Of a DNA stretch of 64,000 nt, positions 18,648-39,553 are shown in pieces. The translations under genes and the position numbers were made by a program. The stretch comes from Aliiroseovarius sp. M344 (GTDB lineage Bacteria; Pseudomonadota; Alphaproteobacteria; Rhodobacterales; Rhodobacteraceae). The stretch spans positions 1 to 64,000 of the forward strand of contig NZ_CP081154.1 in the NCBI RefSeq assembly GCF_025140835.1, in the 5' to 3' direction. The number at the start of each line of letters is the position of its first letter. Within the stretch, counting starts at the first letter, position 1. The notes beneath the pieces were generated by a model. The model searched no databases, was not told the DNA's origin, and saw nothing but the letters and a program-made list of their open reading frames with translations.

Positions 18648-18656
18648 ATTCAGGGT

Positions 18657-19865
18657 CTATTGCACGCCGTAGCGGGACTGCCAGTCATCAGCGATGCGGG
18701 TCATCCAGCTTGGGTGCGGCTCGTCCTGCACGCGACCAAGCTCGGCGGGGGACAGTGTGGCGATGCCAAGCTCAAGCGCGTCAAACCGGGCGCGGTCGTC
18801 GTCCGGCAGGGCGTTCATGTTCAGCACGGTGCCATAGCCCAGAACCTCGGGGTCTTGGGCGTTGGCTTGCGCTTCGGGCGACATCAGGAAGTCGGCCAGT
18901 ACCATCGCACCGGCTTTGGACCCGGAGTTATACGGGATCGCCACGAAGGAGGCGTTGCCAATGGTGCCTTTGTCCAGCACGAAGGTGCGCACGGTGTCGG
19001 GCAGTTCGTAGTTGGCGATCGCGGTCGAGGCTTCGGACGGCGAGAAGCTGATCGCCAGATCAACCTCGCCATCATTGATCAGCTGGATCTGGCGCGGACC
19101 GTTGGCGGGATAGGCACGGCCCTCGCGCCAGAGGGTCGGGGTCAGCTCTTCCAGAAAACCCCACAGCGGCGCGGTGACGGTCGCGTAGCTGTCGTCGGAG
19201 ACCGGGGCGGCAAGCGCGGCGGGGTCATCGGCCAGCTCGACCAGCATCTGCTTCAGGAACGTGGTGCCCAGAAAATCGGGCGGCTGTGGATAGGTGAAGC
19301 GGCCCGGATTGGCCTTGGTCCATTCAAGGATCGCGGCGGCCGAGGGCAGGGGGGCGGGGATGTCCGCCGTGTCATACATGAACACGACCTGTGCCATCGC
19401 CCATGGGGCTTCATAGCCTTCGACAGGGACGGTGAAGTCAGTGCGCACGGTTTTGCCCTCTGCATCAACATATTGCCAGTTGGGCAGATGTTCGGCGAAG
19501 GGTCCAAACAGCAACCCAGCTTCTTTCATCGAGGCGAAGTTGGCGCCGTTAATCCAGATCATGTCGATCGCGCCGTCATCATCCTGACCGGCCTGCATTT
19601 CAGACAACACGCGGGTGACGGCGTCGGCGGTGTCAGTCAGCTTCACATGCTCAAGTGTTACGCCATAGCGGTCTTTCACCTGATCCCCCGCCCATTCGAT
19701 GAACGCGTTGGTGGTGGGCGACCCGCCCCATGCGTTCCAATAAACGGTTTGGCCGTTCGCCTCGGCGACAACGGCATCCCAATTGGCAGGATCAGGGTCT
19801 GAGATTGCCGCAAGTGGCACAAAGGTCGAGGCCAGCAAGCTGGCGGCAAAAGCGAGGTGTTGCAT
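18657..19865 (-). CDS. ynjB: ABC transporter substrate-binding protein, YnjB-like
   Basis: The start at 19865 gives 402 residues with a signal peptide (MQHLAFAASLLASTFVPLAA). The mature part contains the conserved VYWNAWGGSPTTNAFIEW and WINGANFASMKEAGLLFGPF seen in YnjB proteins. It is a periplasmic extracytoplasmic binding protein of the thiamine/iron/polyamine fold class. Its ATG shares one base with the ynjF stop (TAATG). A longer upstream reading exists but would overlap ynjF and bury the signal peptide. Confidence 0.85.
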   Translation of the reverse strand: MQHLAFAASLLASTFVPLAAISDPDPANWDAVVAEANGQTVYWNAWGGSPTTNAFIEWAGDQVKDRYGVTLEHVKLTDTADAVTRVLSEMQAGQDDDGAIDMIWINGANFASMKEAGLLFGPFAEHLPNWQYVDAEGKTVRTDFTVPVEGYEAPWAMAQVVFMYDTADIPAPLPSAAAILEWTKANPGRFTYPQPPDFLGTTFLKQMLVELADDPAALAAPVSDDSYATVTAPLWGFLEELTPTLWREGRAYPANGPRQIQLINDGEVDLAISFSPSEASTAIANYELPDTVRTFVLDKGTIGNASFVAIPYNSGSKAGAMVLADFLMSPEAQANAQDPEVLGYGTVLNMNALPDDDRARFDALELGIATLSPAELGRVQDEPHPSWMTRIADDWQSRYGVQ

Positions 19866-24100: not shown

Positions 24101-24955
24101 ATGGGTCAGGGATCGACAAAAGCGAAGACCAAGTTAGAGGCCAAAAGGCGACTATACTGCTCCGGTTACTGGTTGCTCGCCGGCAACATGAAGCGATCCA
24201 AGAGCCATTACCACACCTACTTGCCCGGGACCCTCGATATGATCCGCGGCCACGACCTCGTATTCTACAGCGGTGATGAGCCAGAAATGGCCCATGTTAG
24301 GGAATTGTGTGCCGCGCGGAACATCCATCTGAAAGAGAGGTTTCTGACAATCGCCGATTTGCCAGCATATGGTCTAGCTCAGAATATGGTGGAAGCCTGT
24401 CGACGTATGTCGTTGGATAGCTTTGCGAAACCGCCTGAATACAATGCAGAAAAAGGGGTTGTCCATTACTGGCGGGACTTCCGCGGAAGTGGCGAGGAGG
24501 TTTTTTGTGCCATGCTATCGATTTGGCTGAGCAAAGTGTTTCTAACCTCGACCCTTGCGCAGTCCGAAGACGAGGAACGCCCAGTGGCTTGGGTGGATGC
24601 CTCGTTGTCGCGCTTCAAGCGTCACAGAAACGTTAAGGCGTTTCAACAGTTGGAGTTGCCATGTGACCGGCTGTCCCACTATGGCAATGCAATGAGATAT
24701 TATGGTGCTCTGCTGCCGCTCAACGCGAGCTTCCTGTCGGCCAATGCACCAGTTTGGCGCGATGTGGAGGCCGAGTTTTCCGAGGCTGCAAACCGCGCAA
24801 AAGGGATGGCTTATGGCCACGACGAAGAGACTATCTTCGCAGATTGCCTGTGGCGCCGCCCCGAGTTGTTTCATTGTATCGGCTCGTCAAACGTTATGGT
24901 GTTACAGTCGAAAGCGAAACATCTCATAAGTTCTGTGGTTCGAAGGATAGTGTAA
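24101..24955 (+). CDS. Orphan protein, possibly HtrL/YibB-like glycosyltransferase
   Basis: A 284-residue soluble protein. The opening YCSGYWLLAGNMKRS, then LVFYSGDEPEMAHVRELCAARN and later PVAWVDASLSRFKRHR, recall the HtrL_YibB family, which has glycosyltransferase-like folds with a W-x-D motif. The match is from general pattern only. It lies inside the repeat-bounded patch, and its reading frame is intact, unlike its neighbours upstream. The GTP/nucleotide-sugar relation to the EPS locus is speculation. Confidence 0.5.
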   Translation: MGQGSTKAKTKLEAKRRLYCSGYWLLAGNMKRSKSHYHTYLPGTLDMIRGHDLVFYSGDEPEMAHVRELCAARNIHLKERFLTIADLPAYGLAQNMVEACRRMSLDSFAKPPEYNAEKGVVHYWRDFRGSGEEVFCAMLSIWLSKVFLTSTLAQSEDEERPVAWVDASLSRFKRHRNVKAFQQLELPCDRLSHYGNAMRYYGALLPLNASFLSANAPVWRDVEAEFSEAANRAKGMAYGHDEETIFADCLWRRPELFHCIGSSNVMVLQSKAKHLISSVVRRIV

Positions 24956-25147: not shown

Positions 25148-25798
25148 TCAGACAGATAGATCATACCCAAGTGCTTTGGCGATCTCGGAGTCGGTGTGTT
25201 GCGTGATCCATTCCGTGTCGCCCGGTTTGAGATTGAAGCATTCATCGCGCTTGTTGGCTTCTGGTGTTGGCCCAATCGGGCGGGTTGGCAGCATTACTGT
25301 GCCCGGATCTACCTGCTTCAGACCCGCAGCCTGCGCAAACTTGCCAAGGTGCTGCCCCGGGTCTACTAGCATGTCGGACAAGCGTAGGAAATGAACCCGA
25401 CCCTGAACCTCTGGCCAGTTGAGCCACGAATAGTAAAACTGGTTCCAATATTCGGTGGGAGATGAATAGTAATATCTGGGCCGCACATTCCCGCCCGTGT
25501 TGTCATAGACAATGAAACGACGCCGAATAAACTCAGAGATATTGTCCCCGGCATCCAATTCGGGTCGCTTTTCCAACCAAAACCTGTATAGCGAGGCGTT
25601 TAATTTCAATGGATCCTTCGATAAGACAAGTATATGCACTTGTTTTGGAAGAGGGCATTTGATCTGCGTCGGTGGCACTCCGTGTTTCCAGAACCATTCC
25701 GAAAACACCGCGTCAGAGTGATAGTACTCGTTAAGCATGTGCGCGGCGAGGTTTGTACCCGAGCGGAAAGTTCCGACAACCAGAACTTTCTTCTTCAT
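25148..25798 (-). CDS. Sulfotransferase-family protein
   Basis: From ATG 25798 the product is 216 residues. The start MKKKVLVVGTFRSGTNLAAH has the 5'-phosphosulfate-binding loop (GTFRSGTN) of sulfotransferases. HILVLSKDPLKLNASLYRFW (about 54-73) fits the 3'-phosphate-binding region, where Arg-Asp-Pro is replaced by Lys-Asp-Pro. The first ATG of the open frame (25993) would add 65 residues of poor composition. It lies in the accessory patch and is one of three such genes in the window. Confidence 0.7.
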   Translation of the reverse strand: MKKKVLVVGTFRSGTNLAAHMLNEYYHSDAVFSEWFWKHGVPPTQIKCPLPKQVHILVLSKDPLKLNASLYRFWLEKRPELDAGDNISEFIRRRFIVYDNTGGNVRPRYYYSSPTEYWNQFYYSWLNWPEVQGRVHFLRLSDMLVDPGQHLGKFAQAAGLKQVDPGTVMLPTRPIGPTPEANKRDECFNLKPGDTEWITQHTDSEIAKALGYDLSV

Positions 25799-25967
25799 CA
25801 AAATCCGATTTTTCCATATATTTTTTACTGTTGAAATCCCCAATTGTGGTCTCCTACTCGAAATTTGGGGTACATTTCTGTTCTGCCCCGATAATACTGC
25901 ACCGGTATTGCGTACCAACTTTGTCACAGGACAGGCTGAGAGTATAGTTACATGAAATGCCGCTCCA

Positions 25968-26258
25968 CAAGTGGGAGTTTGGCGGCTGCACACTCAGTTG
26001 AGGCGCGAGGGCGGGGAAGCAAATTGGAAGAAACTGTATCGGCTCTACCGCGAACAAGGGTTAACCGTCCGTAAACGGGGCCGACGCAAGCCTGCGATCG
26101 GGAACAGAGTACCTATGGCGATCCCGCAGCGACCAAGCCAGAGGTTTTCGTTGGGCTTTGTATCAGATGCTCTCTCTGACGGCTGAAGGTTCGACATCCT
26201 GTCCGTCATCGAAAACTTCAGCCGCGAATGCCTAGCAAGCGTGCTCGACCATCGCTGT
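25968..26258 (+). pseudogene. IS3-family transposase (orfB) remnant
   Basis: The plus strand encodes RRLHTQ-like segments of IS3 OrfB: VWRLHTQLRREGGEANWKKL, YRLYREQGLTVRKRGRRKPA and PSQRFSLGFVSDALSDG, then a frameshift at about 26184 and RFDILSVIENFSRECLASVL. The first and last parts of the transposase are missing, and the remnant stops exactly where the second copy of the 120-bp repeat begins. No IS ends were found. Confidence 0.85.
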
Positions 26259-26501: not shown

Positions 26502-26759
26502 TCACAGGACCACGCTAGCGTCGTCGTCCAATGCAATTTTTGTCACCGTGTCATGGCGCAGAATATCTTCGATTTGGTGCGATGTCAGATCGGCCACAAG
26601 CAATTGAATCTCGATCAGGTTGTCATCAACCATCACACCATTTTTGTTCAGATGGTCCAGCAACGGTGTGCTGTCTTCGGTGCAGGAAATCAGCACAGGA
26701 TGCGAGTTTCTGGAAAAGCTTTCCATCCGGTCTTTCAGCTTCGGGTCTAGTTTTTGCAT
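26502..26759 (-). CDS. Small I9-like putative protease inhibitor
   Basis: From ATG 26759 (GGGG six bases upstream) the product is 85 residues without a signal peptide. The pattern SHPVLISCTED, then LIEIQLLVADLTSHQIEDIL and HDTVTKIALD resembles the beta-alpha-beta fold of subtilisin propeptides/I9 inhibitors, where the last strand runs before a V-x-x-I-x-x-D end. It lies downstream of an S8 protease gene on the same strand but behind that gene's terminator. Inhibition of that protease is an inference. Confidence 0.55.
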   Translation of the reverse strand: MQKLDPKLKDRMESFSRNSHPVLISCTEDSTPLLDHLNKNGVMVDDNLIEIQLLVADLTSHQIEDILRHDTVTKIALDDDASVVL

Positions 26760-27043
26760 GGTCATCCCCTTTGGCAATCAGTTCGGTTTTTGGTGCAGTG
26801 ATACGTTGAGGTTCATCAAAGGTAGCTCTGCGGTAGTCTCATCCTTGGTCATGGTGCGATCTGAGAAACCAGCCTGGGGTTTGGAAAGGAACAGGTGATG
26901 AAAATGGCTTTCACCAAACTGGCAACTCAGAACGCCAGTCTAATATGACCTAGGGGCATCATCGTGACGAAAGGGCGGCGTGAATGTTGCGTTATTAAGA
27001 TGGAAAAAGGGATGGTTCTGCGTGAATTCGGTGGGATCTGCGC

Positions 27044-27074
27044 AAGAAAAAACCGCCGGGCAGGGCCCGACGGT
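27044..27074 (-). terminator. Rho-independent terminator of the S8 protease gene
   Basis: Arms ACCGCCGGGC (27052-27061) and GCCCGACGGT (27065-27074) pair with one mismatch around AGG. The minus-strand transcript ends in a run of U (A-run 27046-27052 on the plus strand). It lies 20 bases behind the protease stop codon. Confidence 0.75.
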
Positions 27075-27094
27075 CGGTTGGACAGGCGGTGGCG

Positions 27095-28651
27095 TTAGTT
27101 CAGCGCGGCGGTAACGGCTGCTTTGGCATCCACCAGACCCGCACCAAAGAAAGTGCCAAACGCATCGGCATCCTCGTCATTGGCATTCATGCTGTCGGAA
27201 ATGAGCGGCAGGGTCGCCCCCATCATCGGCATATCTCGGCGTGCGGTTTCCACCAGCAGTGCCTTCAGGTCGCATCCATCGCGCGGGCCGGTTCCCTTTT
27301 TGGACAGCCGTTCCGCACGTCGCACCAGCGCGACCACGCCGCCGACAAGGGCGGATGCCCCCGAGGTGCCGCCAAACTGGGTATAGAACCCGCTTTTGGC
27401 CGCGCTGCCCGGAAGGTCAATGTCACCGTTGTCGGCACTGTCATAGCCATAGTTTCCGGCGATGTCGGTGCTGAGCAGCGCCTTCTTGCTATACGGCACG
27501 GTCATTGCTGTTGCCGATTTCAGATAGCCGATCTTTTCCAGCCGCTTGGGTGTTTCGCGCAGTTGGTGGCGGTTGAACACCTCCATATCATCGGACGGTG
27601 CAACCAGCGTCAGCCCGTCACCATAATTGGCATAGCCTGACCGATAGCCCTGACCCGACACAGCCCCAACGGCAATGATGCCGTTTTCGCGGTTGGCCAG
27701 ATTGGCGGGGAACAAAAGCTGGCTTTCGCCCTCGTTCCCGGCGGCGCAGACGATCGGGACATGTTTGCTGATCGCAACGAACAGCGCACGCACCACGCGC
27801 CACAGATGACGGCCGGTTTCAGACAATTGCGGTGCGGTGGGATCGTGGGGCGACGCCTTTTCGGTCAGCACCTCGATCCGGTGCAACAGGTCGGCGGCCT
27901 CGTGATTGGCCCAGCTTTGCAGCTCCGCCTTGAAATCGTCCTTGGGCGCAATGACCGACGCTTCGGGGTCTGGCAACCCGCGCGGCATTACGATCACGTC
28001 GGGCTTTTGGTTCCATGCGTAAAGCAGCGCGGCGATGAATTGCAGCGGGTCGTTGTCAAACCCGGTGCGCAGCGAAATTAGGGTGGAGAACGGATCGACC
28101 CCAAAATAAGGGATCACCCCGGTCGAGGGTTCATCACCCGGATCGCAGCAATGCTCCGGTCCGCCCACGATCAACCCGCTGACCGCGGTCCCGTGCGAGG
28201 CAAACTTGGCTTCCGCATCGCCATGCGGGCGCAGCTCGCCGGTGCTGTCGGTCATGTGTTGCACCACTTCGTCAAAGATGACGACCTCGTCCGCTGAAAG
28301 GCCGTCGAGGTGCAGGTTTTCAACATCAAGCCCGGCAAAGTTCTTTTGATCACCATCCGATCCCGTCGCCAGACGCGCGCCATAGGCCGTTCCGGTGAAA
28401 TCGAGCGACCGCGCAACATCCACACGGTCTTTCAGGTTGGGATGGGCAAAGCTGCATCCGACATCGATCAGCACAACGGTCGACGGGGTCGCGTCGGCCT
28501 TCGCGGCCAGTGTGTCCCACAACGTGTCGGCAAAGCCGGTTCTGGCGGCGTCCGGGGTCAGCACCCCCAGCGACACGAGGTGCCACAGATAGTAATAGGG
28601 GCCGTCTTCCACATGTGCAGCGTCCATGCATTTTGAAACTGTCTTGTTCAT
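27095..28651 (-). CDS. Subtilisin-like serine protease (S8), no signal peptide
   Basis: From ATG 28651 the product is 518 residues. The catalytic triad is Asp63 (VVLIDVGCSFAHPNL, DVG instead of the usual DTG), His153 (FASHGTAVSGLI) and Ser about 430 (GGTSGASALVGG, lacking the usual Pro). The oxyanion Asn is in IVCAAGNEGES. There is no signal peptide, no propeptide domain and no transmembrane helix, so it seems cytosolic or exported by an unrecognised route. It starts 13 bases behind the PAP2 gene. A longer start at 28807 would overlap that gene. Confidence 0.88.
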   Translation of the reverse strand: MNKTVSKCMDAAHVEDGPYYYLWHLVSLGVLTPDAARTGFADTLWDTLAAKADATPSTVVLIDVGCSFAHPNLKDRVDVARSLDFTGTAYGARLATGSDGDQKNFAGLDVENLHLDGLSADEVVIFDEVVQHMTDSTGELRPHGDAEAKFASHGTAVSGLIVGGPEHCCDPGDEPSTGVIPYFGVDPFSTLISLRTGFDNDPLQFIAALLYAWNQKPDVIVMPRGLPDPEASVIAPKDDFKAELQSWANHEAADLLHRIEVLTEKASPHDPTAPQLSETGRHLWRVVRALFVAISKHVPIVCAAGNEGESQLLFPANLANRENGIIAVGAVSGQGYRSGYANYGDGLTLVAPSDDMEVFNRHQLRETPKRLEKIGYLKSATAMTVPYSKKALLSTDIAGNYGYDSADNGDIDLPGSAAKSGFYTQFGGTSGASALVGGVVALVRRAERLSKKGTGPRDGCDLKALLVETARRDMPMMGATLPLISDSMNANDEDADAFGTFFGAGLVDAKAAVTAALN

Positions 28652-28664
28652 GTCGTTGTCCCCC

Positions 28665-29630
28665 TCAAATCCATTCCTGCTGCACCGCCTGATAGCGGTC
28701 GGCAAAAGCGTCTGCGAACAAAGGCGCAAACCGTTTGGCCAGAAGCTGACCTGCGGCGGTATCACTGGGATAATGCAGCCCGGCCCATTCGCGGTTCTGC
28801 GCCACATTCAACGCGGCTTCGGACAGAACCTGTGTGGCGGGATGCTCGGGCAGGATCGTGTTGAAGGCAAAGGCCAGTGTGTGGCACTGGAAGGAGTGGT
28901 TGCTGGGATAGGCTTCATGCGCCGGGTTTGCCAGCACCGGGCGCAGGCGTGGTTCAACCTGGTTGGGGCGCAGCCGCCCAAAGAGGCCCTTGTAGTAAAG
29001 GCCCACATATTCGGTGACGGTCAGCAGCTCTAAAAACAGCGCCTCGGTGCTTTCGAACCCGGCCAGTCCGTCAATACCCAGCGGACGAGTGAAGGCGGTC
29101 AGGTCCAGCGTGGCCTCTTGCAAAATATCGGGGATGCGCAGTTTGCGTTCGTCGATGTTGCGCTGCATGGCCAGCAGAAGCTGGGTTTCCAACCGGCTGT
29201 GATCGGGGCCGGGCGGGGGCGGCAGGATCACGTTGGTCCACTCATCAGGCAGACGCGCGTCCTGATCCTTGGCCCCCGCGCGGTGCAGGCGCAACAGGGC
29301 GTCCGTTGGCATCAAAGACCCGCTGCCGCCTTGGGCGCTGGGGGCCATAAGCTTGTTCTTATTTTTGTTTTTATTCTTGTTCTTGTTCTTGTTCTTGTTT
29401 TTATTCTTATTCAGGGCGGACTTGTTGAAGGCGGATTTGTTCAACACCATGCGCACGGCGCTGACGCCACCAGCCCCTTGAGCCCCCATCCGTTGCTGCA
29501 CCGAAATTTCGGCGACCTTGTCGGTGGCATCGTCAAACTGAAGGCCAGCGGGGCCCACGGTGATCTGGCTCAGGCTCAGAAATTCGGCAATGGACCCGCA
29601 TGCGTGGGTCGTGTCGGCCCGGTCTTTCAT
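28665..29630 (-). CDS. PAP2 / vanadium haloperoxidase-like phosphatase, soluble
   Basis: A 321-residue protein with the PAP2 triad motifs KGLFGRLRPNQV (about 214-225), YPSNHSFQCHTLAFAF (about 243-258) and REWAGLHYPSD (about 288-298). No transmembrane helices are evident, so it is closer to haloperoxidase-like soluble acid phosphatases than to lipid phosphatases. The N-terminal third is of low complexity and contains ten Asn-Lys units (about 74-93). It is placed between the SARP-type regulator (36 bases upstream) and the S8 protease. Confidence 0.83.
   Translation of the reverse strand: MKDRADTTHACGSIAEFLSLSQITVGPAGLQFDDATDKVAEISVQQRMGAQGAGGVSAVRMVLNKSAFNKSALNKNKNKNKNKNKNKNKNKNKLMAPSAQGGSGSLMPTDALLRLHRAGAKDQDARLPDEWTNVILPPPPGPDHSRLETQLLLAMQRNIDERKLRIPDILQEATLDLTAFTRPLGIDGLAGFESTEALFLELLTVTEYVGLYYKGLFGRLRPNQVEPRLRPVLANPAHEAYPSNHSFQCHTLAFAFNTILPEHPATQVLSEAALNVAQNREWAGLHYPSDTAAGQLLAKRFAPLFADAFADRYQAVQQEWI
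29352..29411 (-). repeat. Hexanucleotide tract encoding (Asn-Lys)10 in the PAP2 gene
   Basis: Twenty codons alternate AAC/AAT and AAG/AAA, read on the minus strand, interrupting the N-terminal region of the PAP2 protein. A shorter FNKSALNK copy lies next to it. The unit is six bases, so gain or loss of units would change length but keep the frame. Confidence 0.9.
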
Positions 29631-29666
29631 CTTGTCTTCCCCCCATTGGACGATCGGTTATCTATT

Positions 29667-31460
29667 TCAATCTTGGTCAAACCCGGCTTTGCTGAGCCCC
29701 AGCAGAAACTGGCGCCCGCCTTCGGTGGCCAGCCCCGGATAGCCAGAGCCGCGCAAAACCTCGGTCGAGAAATCGGGTTCGATCTCGGCCAGTTTCTGGC
29801 GCAGGCTTTCCACCATCTGCACGTTGCCCAGATGGGCGTGGCTGGAAATCAGATAGCGCAGGATCGAGTTGAACTTGGGTCGTTGCACCAGCGCCTTTTC
29901 ACCCGCAGCAATCGCAGCAGTGTGGTCGCCCGCCAATGCGGCGGCAATGCACTTGGTGGTGTCGAAATAATAGCTGATCGGCGTGTTCGATCCCAGATGC
30001 TGCGCCCAGGACGCCATCGCCAGCGATTTTCGCGTGTCGCCGGCATAGGCGTTCATCGTCGCATACAGATCCCAGCCGATGGCCTGTTCAGGGTCGATCT
30101 TCAATGCGCGTTCGAACAGCGACGCGGCCATATCAAATTCGCTGAACAGGTAGGAATGGATATGCGCGGCCAATGACAACACAAGCGGGTCAAACTCGTC
30201 TTCTTCCAGCGCACGGGTGGCGTAATACTGCGCTTCGGAAATTTGCGCGGCGGCGTCAGGGGTGAAGCGCTGCCCCACCTGAAACGACTTCGCAAACGCC
30301 ATCCACGCATAGGTCTGCGCGTTGGGTTGCAACTTCAAAAGGCGCGCCAGCTTGTCTTCGGCGCTGGACAGCTCGTTCACCGACAGGCCGAACATCTGAT
30401 AGATACATTCGATCAGTTGACCCGCCCCCGCCATCTGCGGCGATGTCGCCTGCATTTGCAAATGCCGCCCGATCTGGATCACCGCATGTGACACAAGCCC
30501 GTTCAGGGCAGGGCAGGCGGGTTGGGCGAAATCCTCGGGTGTGAAGGCTTGGCTTGATGACCAGACGGTCACGCCATCCTTGCCGGTCAGCAGCTCGACC
30601 GCCAACCGGACCGATGGGCCTTGCGCGATCTCGGACACACGCAGGACAAGCGGGATCTCTACGCGGCCAAATTCGCTGCGCATTTGCGACAGGGGTTGGT
30701 TTTCAAAGGTGCGCACGCTGGGCACCCGACCCATTTCGCGCAGATTGCGGGTCAGTTTGTCGATCAACAGTCCCGCATGGGCATCGCCCGCAGGCCCGCT
30801 TTGGACCCCGATGGCCCAACTGGCAATCTGCGCGGGTTGCACCGAATTGGTCACGTTCAGTTGCGTGTTGATCTTTGGGTCAGACATGGACCGGCCATTG
30901 GAACCGCGCGACAGGCCCAGCACGTCGGGCGAAATCTCGGGACGGGCGTCGACCTCTGTTTCCGTGTCGTGATCGGCCAGCCGTTGTTCCCAGATCTGGC
31001 GTTCCAATGTCAGCCAGCTTTCAAACTCCGGGTCGCATATGTCGAACCCTTCCAGAAAGTGTTCCGACACCGCATCAAGTCCCGCAGGTGTTGATACCTC
31101 GCCCCGTTCGACCTGATTGATCAGCTCGATCGCATCAACGCGGATGCGCGACAGGTCCAGCGAGACCGAGTATTTGTCGGCGCTGAGGATGTCCTTCATA
31201 TCCGCGCCAAAACATTTGCGGATGTCCAAAAGCGCCTGCCGCAAACTGGCGGATGCCTGATCTTCGCCCCGGTCGCTCCACAATTTGTCGCGCAACCAGA
31301 CCCGAGATCTGGACCCGCGCGGGGCAAGCGCCAACATCGCCAACACAGCTTTGGATTTCTGGTTCTTCGGGGTGAATAGACCGCCGGCACCATCCTGCAC
31401 GGCGAGGGGGCCGAACAGGAAGATTTCGAGGTCAGGATGGCTAGAGTGTTCAACGTCCAT
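29667..31460 (-). CDS. SARP/BTAD-type transcriptional regulator with TPR-like C-terminus
   Basis: From ATG 31460 (GAAGGA six bases upstream) the product is 597 residues. The first about 90 residues form an OmpR-type winged helix (LEIFLFGPLAVQ, then LAMLALAPRGSRSRVWLRDK and RQALLDIRKCFG), followed by a bacterial transcriptional activation domain (about 100-175). The central part resembles adenylate-cyclase/TolB-type sensor regions (VPSVRTFENQPLSQMR; FGRVEIPLVLRVSEI), and the C-terminus is made of TPR-like helices (LFERALKIDPEQAIGW). It heads the leftward PAP2-protease cluster and probably controls it. Confidence 0.82.
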   Translation of the reverse strand: MDVEHSSHPDLEIFLFGPLAVQDGAGGLFTPKNQKSKAVLAMLALAPRGSRSRVWLRDKLWSDRGEDQASASLRQALLDIRKCFGADMKDILSADKYSVSLDLSRIRVDAIELINQVERGEVSTPAGLDAVSEHFLEGFDICDPEFESWLTLERQIWEQRLADHDTETEVDARPEISPDVLGLSRGSNGRSMSDPKINTQLNVTNSVQPAQIASWAIGVQSGPAGDAHAGLLIDKLTRNLREMGRVPSVRTFENQPLSQMRSEFGRVEIPLVLRVSEIAQGPSVRLAVELLTGKDGVTVWSSSQAFTPEDFAQPACPALNGLVSHAVIQIGRHLQMQATSPQMAGAGQLIECIYQMFGLSVNELSSAEDKLARLLKLQPNAQTYAWMAFAKSFQVGQRFTPDAAAQISEAQYYATRALEEDEFDPLVLSLAAHIHSYLFSEFDMAASLFERALKIDPEQAIGWDLYATMNAYAGDTRKSLAMASWAQHLGSNTPISYYFDTTKCIAAALAGDHTAAIAAGEKALVQRPKFNSILRYLISSHAHLGNVQMVESLRQKLAEIEPDFSTEVLRGSGYPGLATEGGRQFLLGLSKAGFDQD

Positions 31461-32674: not shown

Positions 32675-34417
32675 TTGGCAGAACAGCTATCCGTGAAGAG
32701 AAAGAAAAACCCTTATAAGACGGAACTCTCACACCTGCGTCGGGCGTTTCTGACCGTCGGGCTGTTCAGCGCCGCGATCAACGTGCTGATGCTGACCGGG
32801 CCGCTTTACATGTTGCAGGTCTATGACCGCGTGCTGTCCAGCGGGTCTGTGGCGACCTTGCAGGGGCTGTTTGTGATCGTCGTGATCCTGTACGCCTTTC
32901 TTGGTATTTACGAATTTCTGCGCGCCCGCCTTTTGTCGCGCGCCAGCTATCGGCTGGATCAGAAAATCGGCAAGGATGCGTTCGGGTTCTGGCTCAGGTC
33001 CGGCTTTGTTGACAATAAAGAACACTATAATCCGGTGCAGGATCTGGCCATGGTGCGTTCGTTTCTTGCCAGCCCGGCTATTCTGGGGCTGTTCGATCTT
33101 CCGTGGATCCCCATTTTTCTGGCGGTTGTGTTCCTTATTCACCCGTGGCTGGGCTGGCTGACAGTTGCCGGCGCGGTGATTGTGATCATCGCCGCTATTA
33201 TCAACTGGTTTGCGTCGCGCGATCCGATCAAGAATGCCGGGGTCAGCGAAGGGGTTGAACGTTCATTCGTGGAACGTGCCCGCAGGAATGCCGAGGCCGT
33301 TCTGGCCCTTGGGATGCTGGACAAGGTGACCGACCGTTGGAGCGGCCTGCATGAAAGCAGCCTTGGTCATTATCAATCCGGCGGCGACCGATCCGAGGCT
33401 GTCGCGGCATTCTCCAAATCCTTCCGGCTGCTGTTGCAATCGACCTTGCTGACGGTTGGTGCGTATCTGGCGCTGTTGCAGGAGATCTCGCCGGGTATGA
33501 TCATTGCGACCTCGATCGTGGCAGGACGAGCCTTGGCGCCCCTCGATCAGGTGATCGGACACTGGCGCACAATCGGGCGGGCAGGGGACGCGCATCGGCG
33601 CTTGAAAGAGGCAATGGACTATCTTCCCGACCCGCAAAGCGGATTCGATCTGCCGGAACCGAAAGGCCATCTGGAAGTAAAGAATGTCACAAAGCTGACG
33701 CCCAAGAATTCTTTGGTCAGCGACCGCCCCCGAATTCTGGAACGGGTCAGTTTCGAGCTTGAGCCGGGCGATGGTCTGGGTGTGGTTGGCAGCAGTGCGG
33801 CGGGTAAATCCAGCCTGGCCCGCATTTTGGTGGGGCTGTGGGAGCCCGACCTTGGCGAGGTTCGGCTGGATGGCGCCACCCTGAACCAATGGCACAACGA
33901 TGATCTGGGCGGCCATATCGGATATCTGCCGCAGAAGGTCGAAATGTTGCCCGGCACGATTGCCGAAAACATCGCGCGGTTTGATCCAGCTGCACGGGAC
34001 GAGGATGTTATCGAAGCCGCACAGATTGCCGGCGTCCACGACATGATCCTGAAAATGCCGCAGGGCTATACGACCTTTGTCGGCACCACGGATCAGCCCT
34101 TGTCTGGTGGTCAGACCCAGCGGCTTGGTTTGGCGCGGGCCTTGTTTGGAAGCCCACGACTGCTGGTTCTGGACGAGCCGAACTCGAACCTCGATGCGAA
34201 GGGGGACGAGGCTTTGGCCAGCGCTGTGATCGGGATGCGCCGGAAAGGCTGCACCGTCTTGGTGATGGCGCACCGCCCCAGCGTCATTCAGGCCGTGAAC
34301 AAGATTCTGATCCTGCATGAAGGCAAGGTGGGTCGATTTGGCTTGAAAGAGGATGTGTTGCAGCACGCCGCACCGGCCAAGGCCTCTCCCACCCCCAATT
34401 CCGTGTTCGAGGTGTAA
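32675..34417 (+). CDS. Type I secretion ABC exporter (PrtD/PrsD-like)
   Basis: A 580-residue fusion of a six-helix exporter domain (about 25-320; FLTVGLFSAAINVLMLTGPL, LYMLQVYDRVLSSGS are typical of PrtD) and an ATPase domain with Walker A GSSAAGKSS (about 369-377), signature LSGGQTQR, Walker B LLVLDEPNSNLD and H-loop VMAHRPS. There is no N-terminal peptidase domain. The chosen start is TTG 32675; its ribosome site is weak and no ATG is near. It forms an operon with the fusion protein 3 bases downstream. Confidence 0.92.
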   Translation: MAEQLSVKRKKNPYKTELSHLRRAFLTVGLFSAAINVLMLTGPLYMLQVYDRVLSSGSVATLQGLFVIVVILYAFLGIYEFLRARLLSRASYRLDQKIGKDAFGFWLRSGFVDNKEHYNPVQDLAMVRSFLASPAILGLFDLPWIPIFLAVVFLIHPWLGWLTVAGAVIVIIAAIINWFASRDPIKNAGVSEGVERSFVERARRNAEAVLALGMLDKVTDRWSGLHESSLGHYQSGGDRSEAVAAFSKSFRLLLQSTLLTVGAYLALLQEISPGMIIATSIVAGRALAPLDQVIGHWRTIGRAGDAHRRLKEAMDYLPDPQSGFDLPEPKGHLEVKNVTKLTPKNSLVSDRPRILERVSFELEPGDGLGVVGSSAAGKSSLARILVGLWEPDLGEVRLDGATLNQWHNDDLGGHIGYLPQKVEMLPGTIAENIARFDPAARDEDVIEAAQIAGVHDMILKMPQGYTTFVGTTDQPLSGGQTQRLGLARALFGSPRLLVLDEPNSNLDAKGDEALASAVIGMRRKGCTVLVMAHRPSVIQAVNKILILHEGKVGRFGLKEDVLQHAAPAKASPTPNSVFEV

Positions 34418-34420
34418 CCG

Positions 34421-35737
34421 ATGGCTGATCGCAAAATGCCCAACACAAGCAAGATCAAAACCGGCCTTGCCGCCCCCGTGTATCTGGGGGCGCTGGCCAG
34501 TCTGGCGCTGCTGCTCGCAGGCTTTATCTGGATGTCCACCACTCTGATCACCAGTGCGGTGATCGCGCCGGGCAAGGTTGTTGTGCGCGGTTTGCCCAAG
34601 CAGGTGCAAAGCCTAGATGGCGGCGTGGTCGCAGAAATTCTGGTCAAGGATGGTGACGTCGTGCGCAAGGGCGACGTTCTGCTGCGCCTTGATCCCAGCC
34701 TTTTGCTGATTAATCAGGAAATATACCGCAACCGTCTGTCGGAAGTGGTCACCCGCGAAGCGCGGTTAGACGCTGAATACCAAGAATTGGGCGCCCCGAC
34801 ATTTGAGATCGACAGCGCCTATCTGGACGGGATCGACCTGACCCAGCACTTCAAAGGCCAGCGCGAGATCTTCACCGCGCGGCGCGAGGTGCTGAATGGT
34901 CGCAAGGAACAACTGGCCGAACGCATCTTGCAGTTTGGCAACCAGATCTCAGGCGTCGAAGCGCTGATCAAGTCAAAGCAGGATCAGTTGGAATACGTCA
35001 GTCAGGAATTGGAAAACCTGCAAGGGCTGAACAACGAAGGTCTGATCCGCGAAAGCGAACTGCTCGAACTGCAGGGCAGGGAGTCCTCGCTTCTGGGCCA
35101 GATTGCCGAGCACCAGTCAGAACTGGCGCGGATCTATAACTCGATCCGCGACACCGAACTTGAGATCCTGCAAGCGGATCGCGAGTTCAAGGAACAGGTG
35201 GTGACCGAGTTGCGCACCACCACCGCCGAGCGTGAAGAACTGATCTTGCAGATCGTGACTGTCGAAAAGCAACTGGAGCGGATTGATATTCACGCGCCGA
35301 CCGACGGCATCGTGCACGAGCTACAGGCCACAACCGAAGGCGGCGTGGTCGCCCCCGAGGCGACGATCACCCAGATCGTGCCAACGTCTGACGGGGTCGA
35401 GTTCAAGTTGCAGGTGGACCCCCGTTCGATCGATCAGGTGTTTGTCGGGCAGGTGGCGAAAGTGGTGTTTCCCGCCTTTAACCAACGCACCACGCCGGAA
35501 TTGTTCGGAACAGTGTCCGGGATTTCGCCCACTTCGGTCGAAGACCCACAGACCGGAGAAAGCTATTTTCGCATCGATCTGACGCTGACCACCGAAGAAA
35601 TCGCGCGTCTGGGGGATGTTGATTTGATCCCTGGTATGCCGGTCGAAGCGTTCCTGCAAACCGGCGAGCGGTCGGTGCTGACCTATCTGACAGAGCCTTT
35701 GGTGCAGCAGCTAAAACGCGCGTTCCGCGAGGGCTGA
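34421..35737 (+). CDS. Type I secretion membrane fusion protein (HlyD/PrtE-like)
   Basis: A 438-residue protein with one N-terminal membrane helix (about 26-48), a biotinyl-lipoyl-like half (VQSLDGGVVAEILVKDGDVV), a long helical hairpin (about 150-285, rich in Glu, Gln, Arg, Leu) and the return half (VIHAPTDG-like DIHAPTDGIVHELQAT, about 288-303), ending with the conserved VEAFLQTGERSVLTYLTEPL of type I adaptors. It bridges the exporter and outer-membrane factor. Confidence 0.92.
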   Translation: MADRKMPNTSKIKTGLAAPVYLGALASLALLLAGFIWMSTTLITSAVIAPGKVVVRGLPKQVQSLDGGVVAEILVKDGDVVRKGDVLLRLDPSLLLINQEIYRNRLSEVVTREARLDAEYQELGAPTFEIDSAYLDGIDLTQHFKGQREIFTARREVLNGRKEQLAERILQFGNQISGVEALIKSKQDQLEYVSQELENLQGLNNEGLIRESELLELQGRESSLLGQIAEHQSELARIYNSIRDTELEILQADREFKEQVVTELRTTTAEREELILQIVTVEKQLERIDIHAPTDGIVHELQATTEGGVVAPEATITQIVPTSDGVEFKLQVDPRSIDQVFVGQVAKVVFPAFNQRTTPELFGTVSGISPTSVEDPQTGESYFRIDLTLTTEEIARLGDVDLIPGMPVEAFLQTGERSVLTYLTEPLVQQLKRAFREG

Positions 35738-35884
35738 CCTCAACTTCGGTCATTTGTGCTGTGATTAATATGTCAACCTAAGCGACCAGTTTGCCCCGGT
35801 CGGCACTATTCCTTGGTGAAAAATGGGTTTTGTGCCAGTCTGCGCCATAATAACCGTGAAAAATAACAGTCGCATAGATGGCTG

Positions 35885-37339
35885 ATGAGGCAGACGGGTA
35901 GCATTATGACACATAAAAACGGGCGCTCTGCGCCGGTCTTGGGATTCGTTTTGACGGCCACAATCGGGCTTTCCGGCTGTGCTACGGACGAGACCTATAA
36001 CCTTCCATTCTTCAAATTCGCCAAGTCCTATTCCAGCGTTTCATCGCAAGCGGTTCCTGTACCGTTGGCGAACGAAACATGGTGGATGGGGTTCAAGGAT
36101 CCGGTTTTCAATGAACTGGTAACGCGGTCCTTGGCAGGCAATCTCGACCTTGAGATCGCCCGCGAAAAGGTGATCGAGGCGCGGGCCAACCGTGATGCAG
36201 TGCCCGGTTTGTTGAATGTGTCGCCAACCGCGACGCATCGGTATGGTCAAAGCCCGGGCGGCACCGCCAGCCACACCAGCAACGCGCGGCTTAATCTGGA
36301 CTGGATGCTGGACCCTTACGGCCTGCGTCGCCAACAGTTGCAAGCGGCCAGCGCCCGCGTTGACATTGCGGACGCGGAAGAAGACGCGGCCCGCCTGACG
36401 CTTTTGCTGAACTTGTCCAATGCCTATGTGGACTTGCGCTATAGCCAGCGGTTGTTGAATCTGCGCCGCCAGCAGTTGGCATCGCGCCGCAACGCGGTCA
36501 CGCAAACCAAACAGCTGTTTGATCGCCGCGCCGCCACCAAGCTGGACGTTGTGCAGACAGAGGCTTTGGTTGCCGAAACTCAAACTCAGATCCCGGCGCT
36601 GATTGCCGCGATCCGAGCGTCCAAGACTGAACTGGCCGTTCTGTCCGGCGTCGCCCCCGGTCGTCTGGGCATTGATCTGGACCGCAACGCCAAACAGCCG
36701 CGCCCGTCAAAGGCACTGAAGACCGGCGTGCCCGCAGATATCCTGCGCAATCGCCCCGACATGCAGATCGCCGAGCGCAGCTATTACGAAGCGGTGACGA
36801 ATGTTGGCATCGCGCGCGCCGAACTTTACCCCTCGCTGTCGCTGAGCGGTATGGTTGGCTATGGCGCGTCAAGCGGCACAGACGGTCTGGAATATTTCGT
36901 CGGGCCAACGATCAACTTTCCGTCTTTGCCACTCAAAGCCAGCAAGTCCCGCGTTGCCGCACGTCATTCACGTGCCCGTCAGGCCTATGCCGGTTGGCAG
37001 TCAACGGTATTGTCGTCAGTCAGTGAAGTGGAAGCCGCTTTGGCTGCGTATCAAGGCAGCCGCAGCGCGGTTGTTGAATCGCAGCGCCGCGTGCGCCTGA
37101 ACAGCGAAGCGCGCGATCTGACCCAGGAGCTATTGAAGCGGGAAGGCGCGACCATCCGCGACCTGATCAACGCAGAAGAACGAATTGCGGATGCAGACAC
37201 GGCCCTTGCTGACAACCTGCGCCAACTTGCCCGTAACTATGTGCGTTTGAACATCGCTTTGGGGGCTGGCAGCAAGGTTGGTGAGCCGGAAAAGAGAATC
37301 GGTCAGGTCGATCAGGCCGCTGATTCAGGAGAAAGTTAA
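35885..37339 (+). CDS. NodT-type outer-membrane channel lipoprotein
   Basis: A 484-residue TolC-family protein with a lipobox (LSGC, about Cys32) after the signal segment, then two outer-membrane efflux repeats (LVTRSLAGNLDLEIAREKVI; NRPDMQIAERSYYEAVTNVG; ARAELYPSLSLSG). The lipidated NodT/OprM branch is more common with RND pumps than with type I exporters, which usually use TolC proper. Its position directly behind the exporter and adaptor suggests it is their channel here. Confidence 0.88.
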   Translation: MRQTGSIMTHKNGRSAPVLGFVLTATIGLSGCATDETYNLPFFKFAKSYSSVSSQAVPVPLANETWWMGFKDPVFNELVTRSLAGNLDLEIAREKVIEARANRDAVPGLLNVSPTATHRYGQSPGGTASHTSNARLNLDWMLDPYGLRRQQLQAASARVDIADAEEDAARLTLLLNLSNAYVDLRYSQRLLNLRRQQLASRRNAVTQTKQLFDRRAATKLDVVQTEALVAETQTQIPALIAAIRASKTELAVLSGVAPGRLGIDLDRNAKQPRPSKALKTGVPADILRNRPDMQIAERSYYEAVTNVGIARAELYPSLSLSGMVGYGASSGTDGLEYFVGPTINFPSLPLKASKSRVAARHSRARQAYAGWQSTVLSSVSEVEAALAAYQGSRSAVVESQRRVRLNSEARDLTQELLKREGATIRDLINAEERIADADTALADNLRQLARNYVRLNIALGAGSKVGEPEKRIGQVDQAADSGES

Positions 37340-37600: not shown

Positions 37601-39553
37601 ATGGCGACCTTTTACGTAAGAAGCTCTGCAGAACTTGAGAACGCACTTAGTGCAGCTAATGGTGGGGACGTCATTACTTTGGCAAGTGGTGACTATGGCG
37701 CACTGAATCTAAGAAACGCGACGTTTAGCTCGGAAGTGAAAATCATTTCGGAGAATCCAAATGATATGGCCAGCTTTTCGTCGATGAATCTTGTCGGCGC
37801 ATCGAACTTGACCTTCGAAAGCGTCAAATTTGATTATACCTATAAGACGGGTCAAAGCGTGATGAGCAGACCGTTCAGGGTCACGGACAGTTCGGATATC
37901 AAATTCGACAGTGCCGTGTTTGAGGGTGATTTCGTCAGCGGTACGGGAACGACCGCGGATGGTGCGGGCGCTGGCCGGGCATTGATGTTGAGTTCATCAC
38001 AGAACATTGACATCGTGAACTCCGAGTTTTTCGCTTGGTGGAAAGCGATTTCGATGGGTGGCTCTGAAAACGTCAATCTGATCGGCAACGACATTCACAC
38101 CATTCGTTCAGATGGTATCGTAATTGGTCGTTCGACTAATGTTCTTGTCGAAAACAACTACATCCACGATTTCGGCGGCGCGGCAGGGTCTGGCGACCAC
38201 CGCGATATGATCCAGATCATGCGCGCCCAAGGTGAAGGTGCGCACAATGTGACCATCCGCGATAACATTTTCGACGTGGGCGAAGGCGATTATACGCAGA
38301 CAATCTTTGCAGGTTCTGACAAAGCAAATGCGAGCGACCCAACGCATTGGCATACCAACCTCGTGATCGAAGGGAACCTGATCTACAACAACCATACGCA
38401 CGGCATCAGTGTCGCCATGACGGACGGTTTGACAATCACCGACAATACTTTGGTTGCCATCCCGCGGGACAAGACAGGTGGCGTGACGATTCCCAAGATC
38501 CACGTTTCTTCTGATAGCCGGGATGTCACGATTGAAGGCAACGCTGCGGCTGGTGTATCTGGCAACAATGCTAGTTCTGACTGGAATGTAGCTAACAACC
38601 TGATCATCCAGAACACGTCGCCCAACCAATCTGGGTATTATGACGATGTTTTCGTCTTTCACGCGACATCCGCAGAAGATGGGTACAATCAGTACGGCGT
38701 AAAACCCGGAGGCTTGCTTGATACCATGAATGTGGGATCGTCGCTGTCGGATATGTTCCCGATTTCCTATGACGCTTGGGTAAACGGCACTTCTACTGTG
38801 CCAACTGACACCACGGGTGGAACCAACAATCAAACACCTCCAACCGAACCGGATACCGGTGGCGAGACTGGTTCTGAAACTGGCGGAGAAACAGGAACCG
38901 GCGGAGATACGACCGACACGGGCCCGAATACCGGAAGCGGTGGCACGGTTATCGATGGGCTCATGGAGTTCGATGACTATATTCTGGATTTTGCCGATCT
39001 CAGCGGCGGAAGTTTGATTGGCGATGCAGCGGTGATTGATACGCCCACGGGTCAGGCGATCAAGATGGACGGTGACGGTGATGTCGTCAAACTTGGTCGA
39101 TTGAGCGAGTTTGAAGAGTCAGAGCAACTTGCTTTCACGATCTCTTATGCACGCGACGAAGCGGACGGCAGCACACAGCGCCTTGTATGGAACGGGGGGC
39201 ATGTCGGTCTGACGATCTCTGGCGATGGATTGGCAGCCCATATTGGTAACACCGAAGGGAAATTCACGTCTGGTTTCCGCGTCGACAACCTTGGCCTGAA
39301 CGACACCGACACCCACCAGATCACTGTGTTGGTGGATGAGAACACCGACCATCTTCAGATCATTGTCGATGGGGAGTTGGTGCATGAGGAAACGGATGTC
39401 GACTTTGACTTTTCCGAAAATCGCGAAACCGGTTGGCAGCTCGGCTTCAAACACAACCGGACAATTGATGGAGAGATTTACGATTTCGCTGTCGATGATG
39501 ATGTACAGTTTGTAGAATCACCGGTTTTTGATGACTATCAAACCCTCGCTTAG
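37601..39553 (+). CDS. Right-handed beta-helix protein, probable type I secretion substrate
   Basis: A 650-residue protein with no signal peptide. Residues about 4-400 show parallel beta-helix rungs (NVTIRDNIFDV, NLVIEGNLIYNN, GLTITDNTLV) as in polysaccharide lyases and mannuronan epimerases. A linker of Gly, Thr, Glu and Pro follows (about 405-450), then a LamG/concanavalin-like domain (about 460-635). No GGxGxD RTX nonapeptides are seen. The acidic, hydrophobic C-terminus (VFDDYQTLA) may be the secretion signal. It follows the type I genes and precedes the EPS locus, so an EPS-modifying or -cleaving role is inferred. Confidence 0.8.
   Translation: MATFYVRSSAELENALSAANGGDVITLASGDYGALNLRNATFSSEVKIISENPNDMASFSSMNLVGASNLTFESVKFDYTYKTGQSVMSRPFRVTDSSDIKFDSAVFEGDFVSGTGTTADGAGAGRALMLSSSQNIDIVNSEFFAWWKAISMGGSENVNLIGNDIHTIRSDGIVIGRSTNVLVENNYIHDFGGAAGSGDHRDMIQIMRAQGEGAHNVTIRDNIFDVGEGDYTQTIFAGSDKANASDPTHWHTNLVIEGNLIYNNHTHGISVAMTDGLTITDNTLVAIPRDKTGGVTIPKIHVSSDSRDVTIEGNAAAGVSGNNASSDWNVANNLIIQNTSPNQSGYYDDVFVFHATSAEDGYNQYGVKPGGLLDTMNVGSSLSDMFPISYDAWVNGTSTVPTDTTGGTNNQTPPTEPDTGGETGSETGGETGTGGDTTDTGPNTGSGGTVIDGLMEFDDYILDFADLSGGSLIGDAAVIDTPTGQAIKMDGDGDVVKLGRLSEFEESEQLAFTISYARDEADGSTQRLVWNGGHVGLTISGDGLAAHIGNTEGKFTSGFRVDNLGLNDTDTHQITVLVDENTDHLQIIVDGELVHEETDVDFDFSENRETGWQLGFKHNRTIDGEIYDFAVDDDVQFVESPVFDDYQTLA

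Follow-up and report, generated by a model that had tools for sequence, protein, structure and literature searches.

A conserved regulator–phosphatase–protease module with a perfect peptide repeat ahead of the phosphatase domain

Class A non-specific acid phosphatases such as PhoN and PhoC are exported enzymes characterized by three motifs, K-x6-RP, PS(N/G)H and NR-x3-G-x-H-x3-D. Their fold and active-site residues, those of the three motifs included, recur in a PAP2 phosphatase encoded in the window analysed here, the first 64,000 nucleotides of contig NZ_CP081154.1 (178,736 bases, in a 3.39-Mb genome of two contigs, assembly GCF_025140835.1) of Aliiroseovarius sp. M344. This phosphatase is the second gene of a minus-strand trio whose first gene encodes a regulator, called REG throughout, and whose third gene encodes a protease; the three form a conserved module found far beyond the window strain. 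While the relatives of PhoN and PhoC scored here begin with a hydrophobic stretch, the PAP2 protein of the module has no such start, bears a repeat tail and is accompanied by REG and protease partners. With vanadium-dependent haloperoxidases, the window PAP2 has only the superfamily fold in common.

In terms of the regulator, SARP/BTAD regulators and class III cyclases with tetratricopeptide repeats (TPR) have front domains and a TPR part as found among the REGs of the module; the difference is that in the module one kind of front can replace the other while the two partner genes stay the same. The module also resembles protease-activated operons of the bacterial gasdermin type, where a constant target-like protein is likewise served by interchangeable proteases; by comparison with these, the target-like protein of the module is a phosphatase and not a pore former, it bears a repeat tail, and no defence context was found for it. 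To our knowledge, no kind of system with this make-up is known; the module appears undescribed, while each of its protein families is known. No paper describing the combination was found in searches of open-access literature, where a differently worded paper could be missed; this agrees with the first-pass annotation of the window, made from the letters alone, which knew of no described system of this kind. None of the NCBIfam models was reached above its cut-off by the window REG, PAP2 or protease. A three-gene module present in at least two classes of Pseudomonadota, on chromosome-sized contigs and plasmids of well-studied symbionts and marine bacteria, has seemingly gone undescribed.

The three-gene module and its distribution

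The trio and its immediate surroundings are laid out in the window as follows.

29667-31460, minus strand: REG, a regulator and the first gene of the trio (ATG start, 597 amino acids), with a SARP/BTAD-type DNA-binding front, as labelled from its relatives, and a TPR C-terminal part
28665-29630, minus strand: soluble PAP2 phosphatase, 321 amino acids, class A acid-phosphatase fold
29352-29411, minus strand: (NK)10 array within PAP2 (residues 74-93), mixed codons
27095-28651, minus strand: S8 protease of type S8a, 518 amino acids, starting MNKTVS
27075-27051, minus strand: terminator-like hairpin of 11 pairs with a T-rich tail, directly 3' of the protease gene
26502-26759, minus strand: small stand-alone I9-like protein, 85 amino acids, a genus-level neighbour outside the core
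26440-26410: second terminator-like hairpin, after the small gene

The first-pass annotation had placed four minus-strand genes together, and a check of the open reading frames (ORFs) confirms all four, with corrected starts; for the protease, the start giving 518 residues is taken because that of the 570-residue ORF would overlap PAP2. Gaps of only 36 bases between REG and PAP2 and 13 bases between PAP2 and the protease gene make it very likely that the trio is read as a single transcript. The small gene starts 335 bases past the protease stop, is parted from the trio by the hairpin at 27075-27051 and seems to be a separate unit; a ribosome-binding-site-like AGGGG is seen by eye upstream of it. 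Terminator-like sites in the region number 11, against 8.7 expected from shuffles, and the hairpin at 27075-27051 is among the two longest stems. Neither this hairpin nor the (NK)10 array had been mentioned in the earlier annotation.

A search with the S8 protease through 195 genomes, its own included, matched 13 at E ≤1e-20: 7 among the 21 genomes of the genus, plus 6 that belong to other genera. REG, PAP2 and the S8 gene keep the same order and strand in the 14 loci read (the window; L014, L015, L016, L018; L019-L027). A PAP2 profile, A1, matched 20 of 385 genomes of the class and 30 of 398 of the phylum at E ≤1e-15. Forty-four PAP2 loci were surveyed, with REG sought within 1.5-kb flanks except for L053, whose REG lies in the longer locus L085: 29 of them, among which are the window and one genus mate, have the tail repeat together with REG, the other 15 have neither, and in no locus does one occur without the other. 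The module is present in at least 13 of the 385 and at least 21 of the 398 genomes, the two sets overlapping; these are lower bounds, as A1 was built on the branch with NK, NR and SR repeats. Two of the 21 genomes of the phylum lie outside the class (G516, G719). Annotated plasmids that carry the module include pRL12 of Rhizobium johnstonii 3841 and plasmids of Phaeobacter, Roseibium, Palleronia, Terrirubrum, Microvirga and Paracoccus; copies also occur in Phaeobacter gallaeciensis DSM 26640 and, by profiles on an unannotated record, in Paraburkholderia phymatum (Betaproteobacteria). The trio bears the locus tags RL_RS36050, RL_RS36045 and RL_RS36040 in R. johnstonii 3841, and GAL_RS20220, GAL_RS22020 and GAL_RS20230 in Phaeobacter.

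Altogether 56 loci were picked for REG beside PAP2, near relatives included (7 from Aliiroseovarius, 4 each from Phaeobacter and Rhizobium), and the counts over them are therefore non-independent. Not counted separately are L001-L013, abridged forms of loci retrieved at greater length, and L017, whose contig is as long as that of L027 and which was treated as identical to it; a second match in genome G805 lies outside the set, and L098 (Bosea) was excluded, its PAP2 being split in two annotated ORFs with no REG match nearby. By profile, a REG relative is found in 56/56 loci, and a protease accompanies REG and PAP2 in 55, the exception being L076. All three genes lie on one strand in 48 of the 54 loci with a profile-matched protease; the other six (L062, L079, L082, L085, L088, L106) are rearranged and yet keep the genes together, which argues for more than operon inertia. 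REG, PAP2 and the protease constitute a conserved module, which is almost certainly real and functional. Co-occurrence outside the strain, which the earlier annotation had proposed to look for by a neighbourhood search, is therefore borne out for three of its families; as a unit of four, the cassette it described does not hold, since an I9-like profile finds the small gene in 8 of the 44 module loci searched, that is in 7/7 Aliiroseovarius loci and in L027. In the latter (17283-19228; genome G109) the I9-like gene lies directly downstream of a different S8 gene, with a longer N-terminal region. The I9-like gene is outside the conserved core of the module.

The window PAP2 carries a PAP2 domain (Pfam, E 1.3e-9) with its catalytic motifs. 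Residues 1-107 are modelled with low confidence in the predicted structure, and this tail is taken as disordered. Peak hydropathy over 13 residues, a crude measure, is 1.21 in the first 70 residues of the window PAP2 and 1.21-1.68 across the four window proteins, against 1.77-2.85 for the part that precedes the catalytic motif of 15 acid-phosphatase relatives without REG. By this measure the secretion signal typical of class A enzymes is lacking from the window PAP2, and no sign of a signal peptide was seen in the 11 module proteins scored.

The window protease matches Peptidase_S8 (E 1.7e-20, 74 bits). Asp63, His153, Asn306 and Ser430 are invariant in 14 aligned S8a sequences, window included, as is an N-terminal LWHL motif; the DVG and GTSGAS motif variants that had been pointed out are real and, the catalytic residues being invariant, leave the active site intact as judged from the alignment. 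No propeptide domain is found ahead of the catalytic domain: the 62 residues before the catalytic Asp contain a YYYLWHL motif and are, by eye, too few for an I9 domain. Hydropathy peaks at 1.68 in the first 70 residues by the same crude measure; neither the signal peptide nor the own prodomain of secreted subtilisins is seen. The protease looks catalytically intact and, as the first-pass annotation had proposed, intracellular.

Across the module, the protease slot is filled by unrelated folds, either S8 subtilases or G1 glutamic peptidases. By locus, the types are S8a (20), S8b (28), G1 (5) and other S8 (2, L079 and L081, both divergent from REG). For S8b and G1, the profiles derive from 14 and 5 of these very proteins, respectively, so that the match is given by construction; the assignment itself rests on Pfam or catalytic motifs. 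Peptidase_A4 is matched by 5/5 G1 proteins, all of which keep the eqolisin motifs in an alignment read by eye. Peptidase_S8 is matched by the S8b-type proteases of L078, L080, L082, L087, L088, L089 and L090, and those of L083, L085 and L086, devoid of a Pfam match, can be aligned with the rest and retain all four of Asp, His, Asn and Ser. In the 14 aligned S8b proteins the catalytic residues are kept, with one Asp-to-Glu exchange in L107. An I9-like domain suspected by eye within S8b N-termini was dropped, as profile comparison with the 85-residue family gave a probability of 0.2 (from a poor S8b alignment).

The window REG gives weak Pfam matches (TPR_14, 0.001; Trans_reg_C, 0.063) and none to BTAD, which the related REG of L076 matches at 7.7e-23; Rhizobium relatives are annotated as SARP family transcriptional regulators, and it is by these relatives that the window REG is given its putative SARP/BTAD label. 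Its middle part is presumably TolB_N-like. A class III cyclase front is recognized by motif in 14 REGs, with Pfam in agreement where scanned (L024, L072, L089, L095); L024 belongs to the S8a branch of the window. Nine REGs are cut by the end of the locus and the remaining 33 are called DNA-binding mainly by exclusion, among them that of L077, which is cyclase-like by eye though outside the automatic count. Of the non-cyclase REGs scanned with Pfam, those of L080 and L093 match Trans_reg_C and that of L076 matches BTAD; for L018, L022, L078, L082 and L083 the scan returns no front domain. REG retains its TPR part while its front swaps between a DNA-binding domain and a class III cyclase.

The small neighbouring protein had been described as a separate I9-like member of the cassette. 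Its fold stands: the best solved matches of its predicted structure are subtilisin propeptides, and the model supports an I9 prodomain fold; its membership of the cassette does not, given the eight loci above. By sequence, the 85-residue protein has no Pfam match up to E 1 and matches no I9 chain of the Protein Data Bank up to E 10. In Aliiroseovarius it might serve the S8 protease as a prodomain on a separate chain, with a chaperone or inhibitor function. Compared with stand-alone I9 inhibitors (POIA1) and subtilisin prodomains, it differs in belonging to no I9 family by sequence and in being paired with its protease by position only.

The repeat in the phosphatase tail

A perfect peptide repeat with a period of 2, 3 or 4 stands ahead of the catalytic domain in 56/56 module PAP2s and spans 12-48 residues (median 21). 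Repeats of at least 12 residues are absent from the 15 PAP2 relatives without REG, from all 56 REGs and from the 21 proteins matched by the S8a profile, where the longest runs are 7, 7 and 8 residues, respectively. The unit is NK in the window and NR, SR, TGN, GGA, NSF or DAR in others; 46 less redundant rows show 24 kinds. Arrays are imperfect or not visible in some relatives from the protein database, a point that returns below, and for this reason the repeat counts rest on six-frame DNA and not on the protein collection.

While the peptide is near-invariant within each protein, its DNA is scrambled. In the (NK)10 array of the window, 7/20 codons differ from the commonest; overall, 572/1301 codons are not the one most often used at their position, and 44/434 pairs of neighbouring units share the same DNA, against 52.0 expected with shuffled codons. 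If the arrays are lengthened by allowing units that contain a single mismatch, which gives 1331 codons, 10 amino-acid deviations stand against 581 synonymous ones, where the set of all possible single-base changes would give 3.18 missense per 1 synonymous. The crude ratio of about 0.005 carries a purity bias, as a search for perfect runs served to detect the arrays; related loci enter it as separate counts. The repeated peptide is under selection: its residues are held while its codons are scrambled.

Between lineages, the unit is changed repeatedly. In a tree of PAP2 after the array (46 rows, without the near-copies L015, L016, L019, L020, L021, L094, L099, L102, L103 and L104), the unit needs at least 25 changes, and the protease type, with its 5 classes, needs 4, which is the minimum; the tree was made by a quick method and has 16 forks of weak support as well as two long branches, L085 and L076. 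Protease type tracks the PAP2 clade; S8a rows have two-residue units only and G1 rows have [T/A]-[G/S]-N units only. Even sister loci differ, with AGV in L057 and TGV in L058, the codons staying mixed through such a wholesale switch of the unit. Copy number also differs between close species, from 7 to 10 in Aliiroseovarius and 5 or 6 in Phaeobacter. The tail repeat is an evolutionary puzzle, with a unit uniform within the protein and repeatedly replaced between lineages, and a selective demand that every unit be the same, no matter which unit it is, would represent a novel type of constraint; two unrelated protease folds in one slot make that constraint testable.

Genomes G370 and G497 each hold two REG-PAP2 copies with differing units (L040/L048 and L033/L049: NAE and GGF; EGGG and GSF). 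On plasmid pW43B of Parasedimentitalea marina (L101, 2396-5225), PAP2 and the S8b protease are present as shorter, separate ORFs with the (NSF)7 array intact.

A proposed protease-gated phosphatase and its rivals

The reading tentatively favoured here, possible rather than probable, is that of a widespread three-gene module encoding a protease-gated intracellular phosphatase, in which the protease would act on the repeat tail and thereby switch PAP2. REG would read a signal with its TPR part and answer through its front domain, by DNA binding or, in other members, by cyclic-nucleotide synthesis. The second gene would provide the phosphatase, a PAP2 protein of class A type with the perfect short repeat as its flexible N-terminal tail; the third, a cytosolic protease that would most likely act on this tail and either switch the phosphatase or free it from the TPR protein. 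The units would have to match because the protease, the TPR groove or both would read the tail in any register. Four points of this reading are inferred: the protease has the tail as its substrate, the phosphatase is switched when the tail is cut, both are under the control of REG, and all three proteins are cytosolic. The reading builds on the co-occurrence of the genes, intact catalytic residues, the repeat in 56/56 PAP2s, selection on the peptide and the unrelated folds of the protease. As the protease may be S8 or G1 while the bearer of the tail is always PAP2 (in searches with PAP2 mostly as bait), PAP2 seems to be the target, and the protease the tool that acts on it. A stricter version, which we consider rather doubtful, makes the unit a lineage-private peptide word on the phosphatase tail, read by the co-inherited protease and TPR sensor and replaceable if all copies change together; if true, this would be a self-consistent peptide code gating an enzyme inside bacteria.

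Several findings weigh against protease gating. Units vary widely within the S8b clade (GGA, NSF, NAE, QTQ and others) beside one protease type, which would require a protease that follows each new unit or ignores side chains. The match between protease type and repeat type is expected from common descent alone. L076 has repeat and REG with no protease by the profiles used, and its short EGGG array has identical codons. As for the protein-database relatives, the 120 listed of 282 (P0076-P0195) either show no run longer than 11 residues or begin past the array; arrays are imperfect in P0076, P0097, P0116 and P0130, repeats seen among 68 relatives from another search are mostly (NK)5, and some relatives may truly lack an array, although the protein collection or gene callers may cut or hide long repeats.

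The best rival of protease gating is a self-assembling tail, which on present evidence we regard as unlikely: through its two- or three-residue periodicity the repeat would form a regular extended strand or helix with identical faces, packing only with its like, and the phosphatase would be stored in a filament or condensate that the protease dissolves. Units of two, three or four residues perfectly in phase, with a small residue at every third place in many of them, fit this, and identity within the array combined with freedom between lineages is what homotypic packing would select; however, the units share no common chemistry (NK, DAR, NAE, QTQ, NSF) and the model gives the tail no structure, though a single chain could not reveal assembly. 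A conflict or abortive-infection role, towards which the first-pass annotation leaned, overlaps with the gating reading in that an insult would activate the protease and unleash a broad phosphatase depleting nucleotides or other phosphates. The patchy presence of the module (7/21 genomes of the genus), its frequent residence on plasmids and a swappable-front sensor joined to protease and enzyme, which recalls protease-activated effectors such as bacterial gasdermins, are all in keeping with it. Against this stand the absence of any match for the four window proteins in PADLOC (2023 library, up to E 1) and the annotated neighbours in the records read, which are metabolic, transport, plasmid-maintenance, regulatory, mobile or hypothetical with none named as defence (no defence-library scan of neighbours was made); in viral contigs, the 80 retained of 113 weak PAP2 relatives (24-40% identity) lack REG, any protease of the S8a, S8b or G1 type and repeats that reach 12 residues. 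A defence role is not favoured on these grounds, and conflict or abortive infection appears decidedly improbable. Among phage protein families (PHROGs), the S8 protease alone gives a match, to a generic protease.

TPR regulators of the RRNPP kind sense pheromones, and the locus likewise unites a TPR regulator, a protease and a multi-copy precursor whose unit varies by lineage, as if the protease freed the units as di- to hexapeptides to be sensed by the TPR part of REG. Such peptide signalling is nonetheless highly unlikely: no conserved exporter or importer was seen beside the trio (a type I secretion set adjoins it only in Aliiroseovarius), no signal peptide is indicated by hydropathy, peptides of two or three residues, GGA for example, would make poor private signals, and the precursor is fused to an enzyme. 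Least probable by far, and already refuted as the whole explanation unless something else brings about the pattern of codons, is a functionless slippage microsatellite beside genes that merely travel together; the variation in copy number between close species would suit slippage, but scrambled codons with residues kept and the exact tracking of REG by the repeat in the 44-locus survey speak against it.

Neighbouring genes

Beside REG, a type I secretion set (ABC transporter, HlyD, TolC-like) starts divergently at 32675-37339, followed by a right-handed beta-helix protein at 37601-39553. As an export route for the protease this set was dropped, as it adjoins the trio only in the 7 Aliiroseovarius loci among the 14 compared. 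Downstream of the small gene lie a sulfotransferase-like gene and an orphan gene without a Pfam match (25148-25993 and 24101-24955), around which guanine-plus-cytosine content is 0.49-0.55 against about 0.60 in the trio. RP-C (repABC), looked for as a sign of plasmid origin, has no match in the whole genome.

In Rhizobium (L092, 9760-12377; L102, L103, L104) and in L084 (1844-4070, genome G737), the trio is followed by a homologue of aKG-HExxH-type peptide hydroxylases, just below the model cut-off in L084, and by a ThiF homologue, out of view in L104; in Rhizobium a small ORF is present too. These genes perhaps form an undescribed modified-peptide cluster. Likeness to systems for ribosomally synthesized and post-translationally modified peptides that use a cyclase, an HExxH hydroxylase or ThiF was noticed in Rhizobium and L084 only. 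No maturase was found among the six flanking window proteins scanned, and no leader or core peptide was identified, no dedicated precursor tool having been used; such a reading of the module as a whole was set aside, as HExxH and ThiF genes were noticed there only, most loci being seen only to the starts of neighbouring ORFs. On a plasmid of Palleronia sp. THAF1 (L097, 8362-12119), two genes come after the trio: one of the heme peroxidase family, with a short PDPDPDP run at its start, and one for a C1 peptidase.

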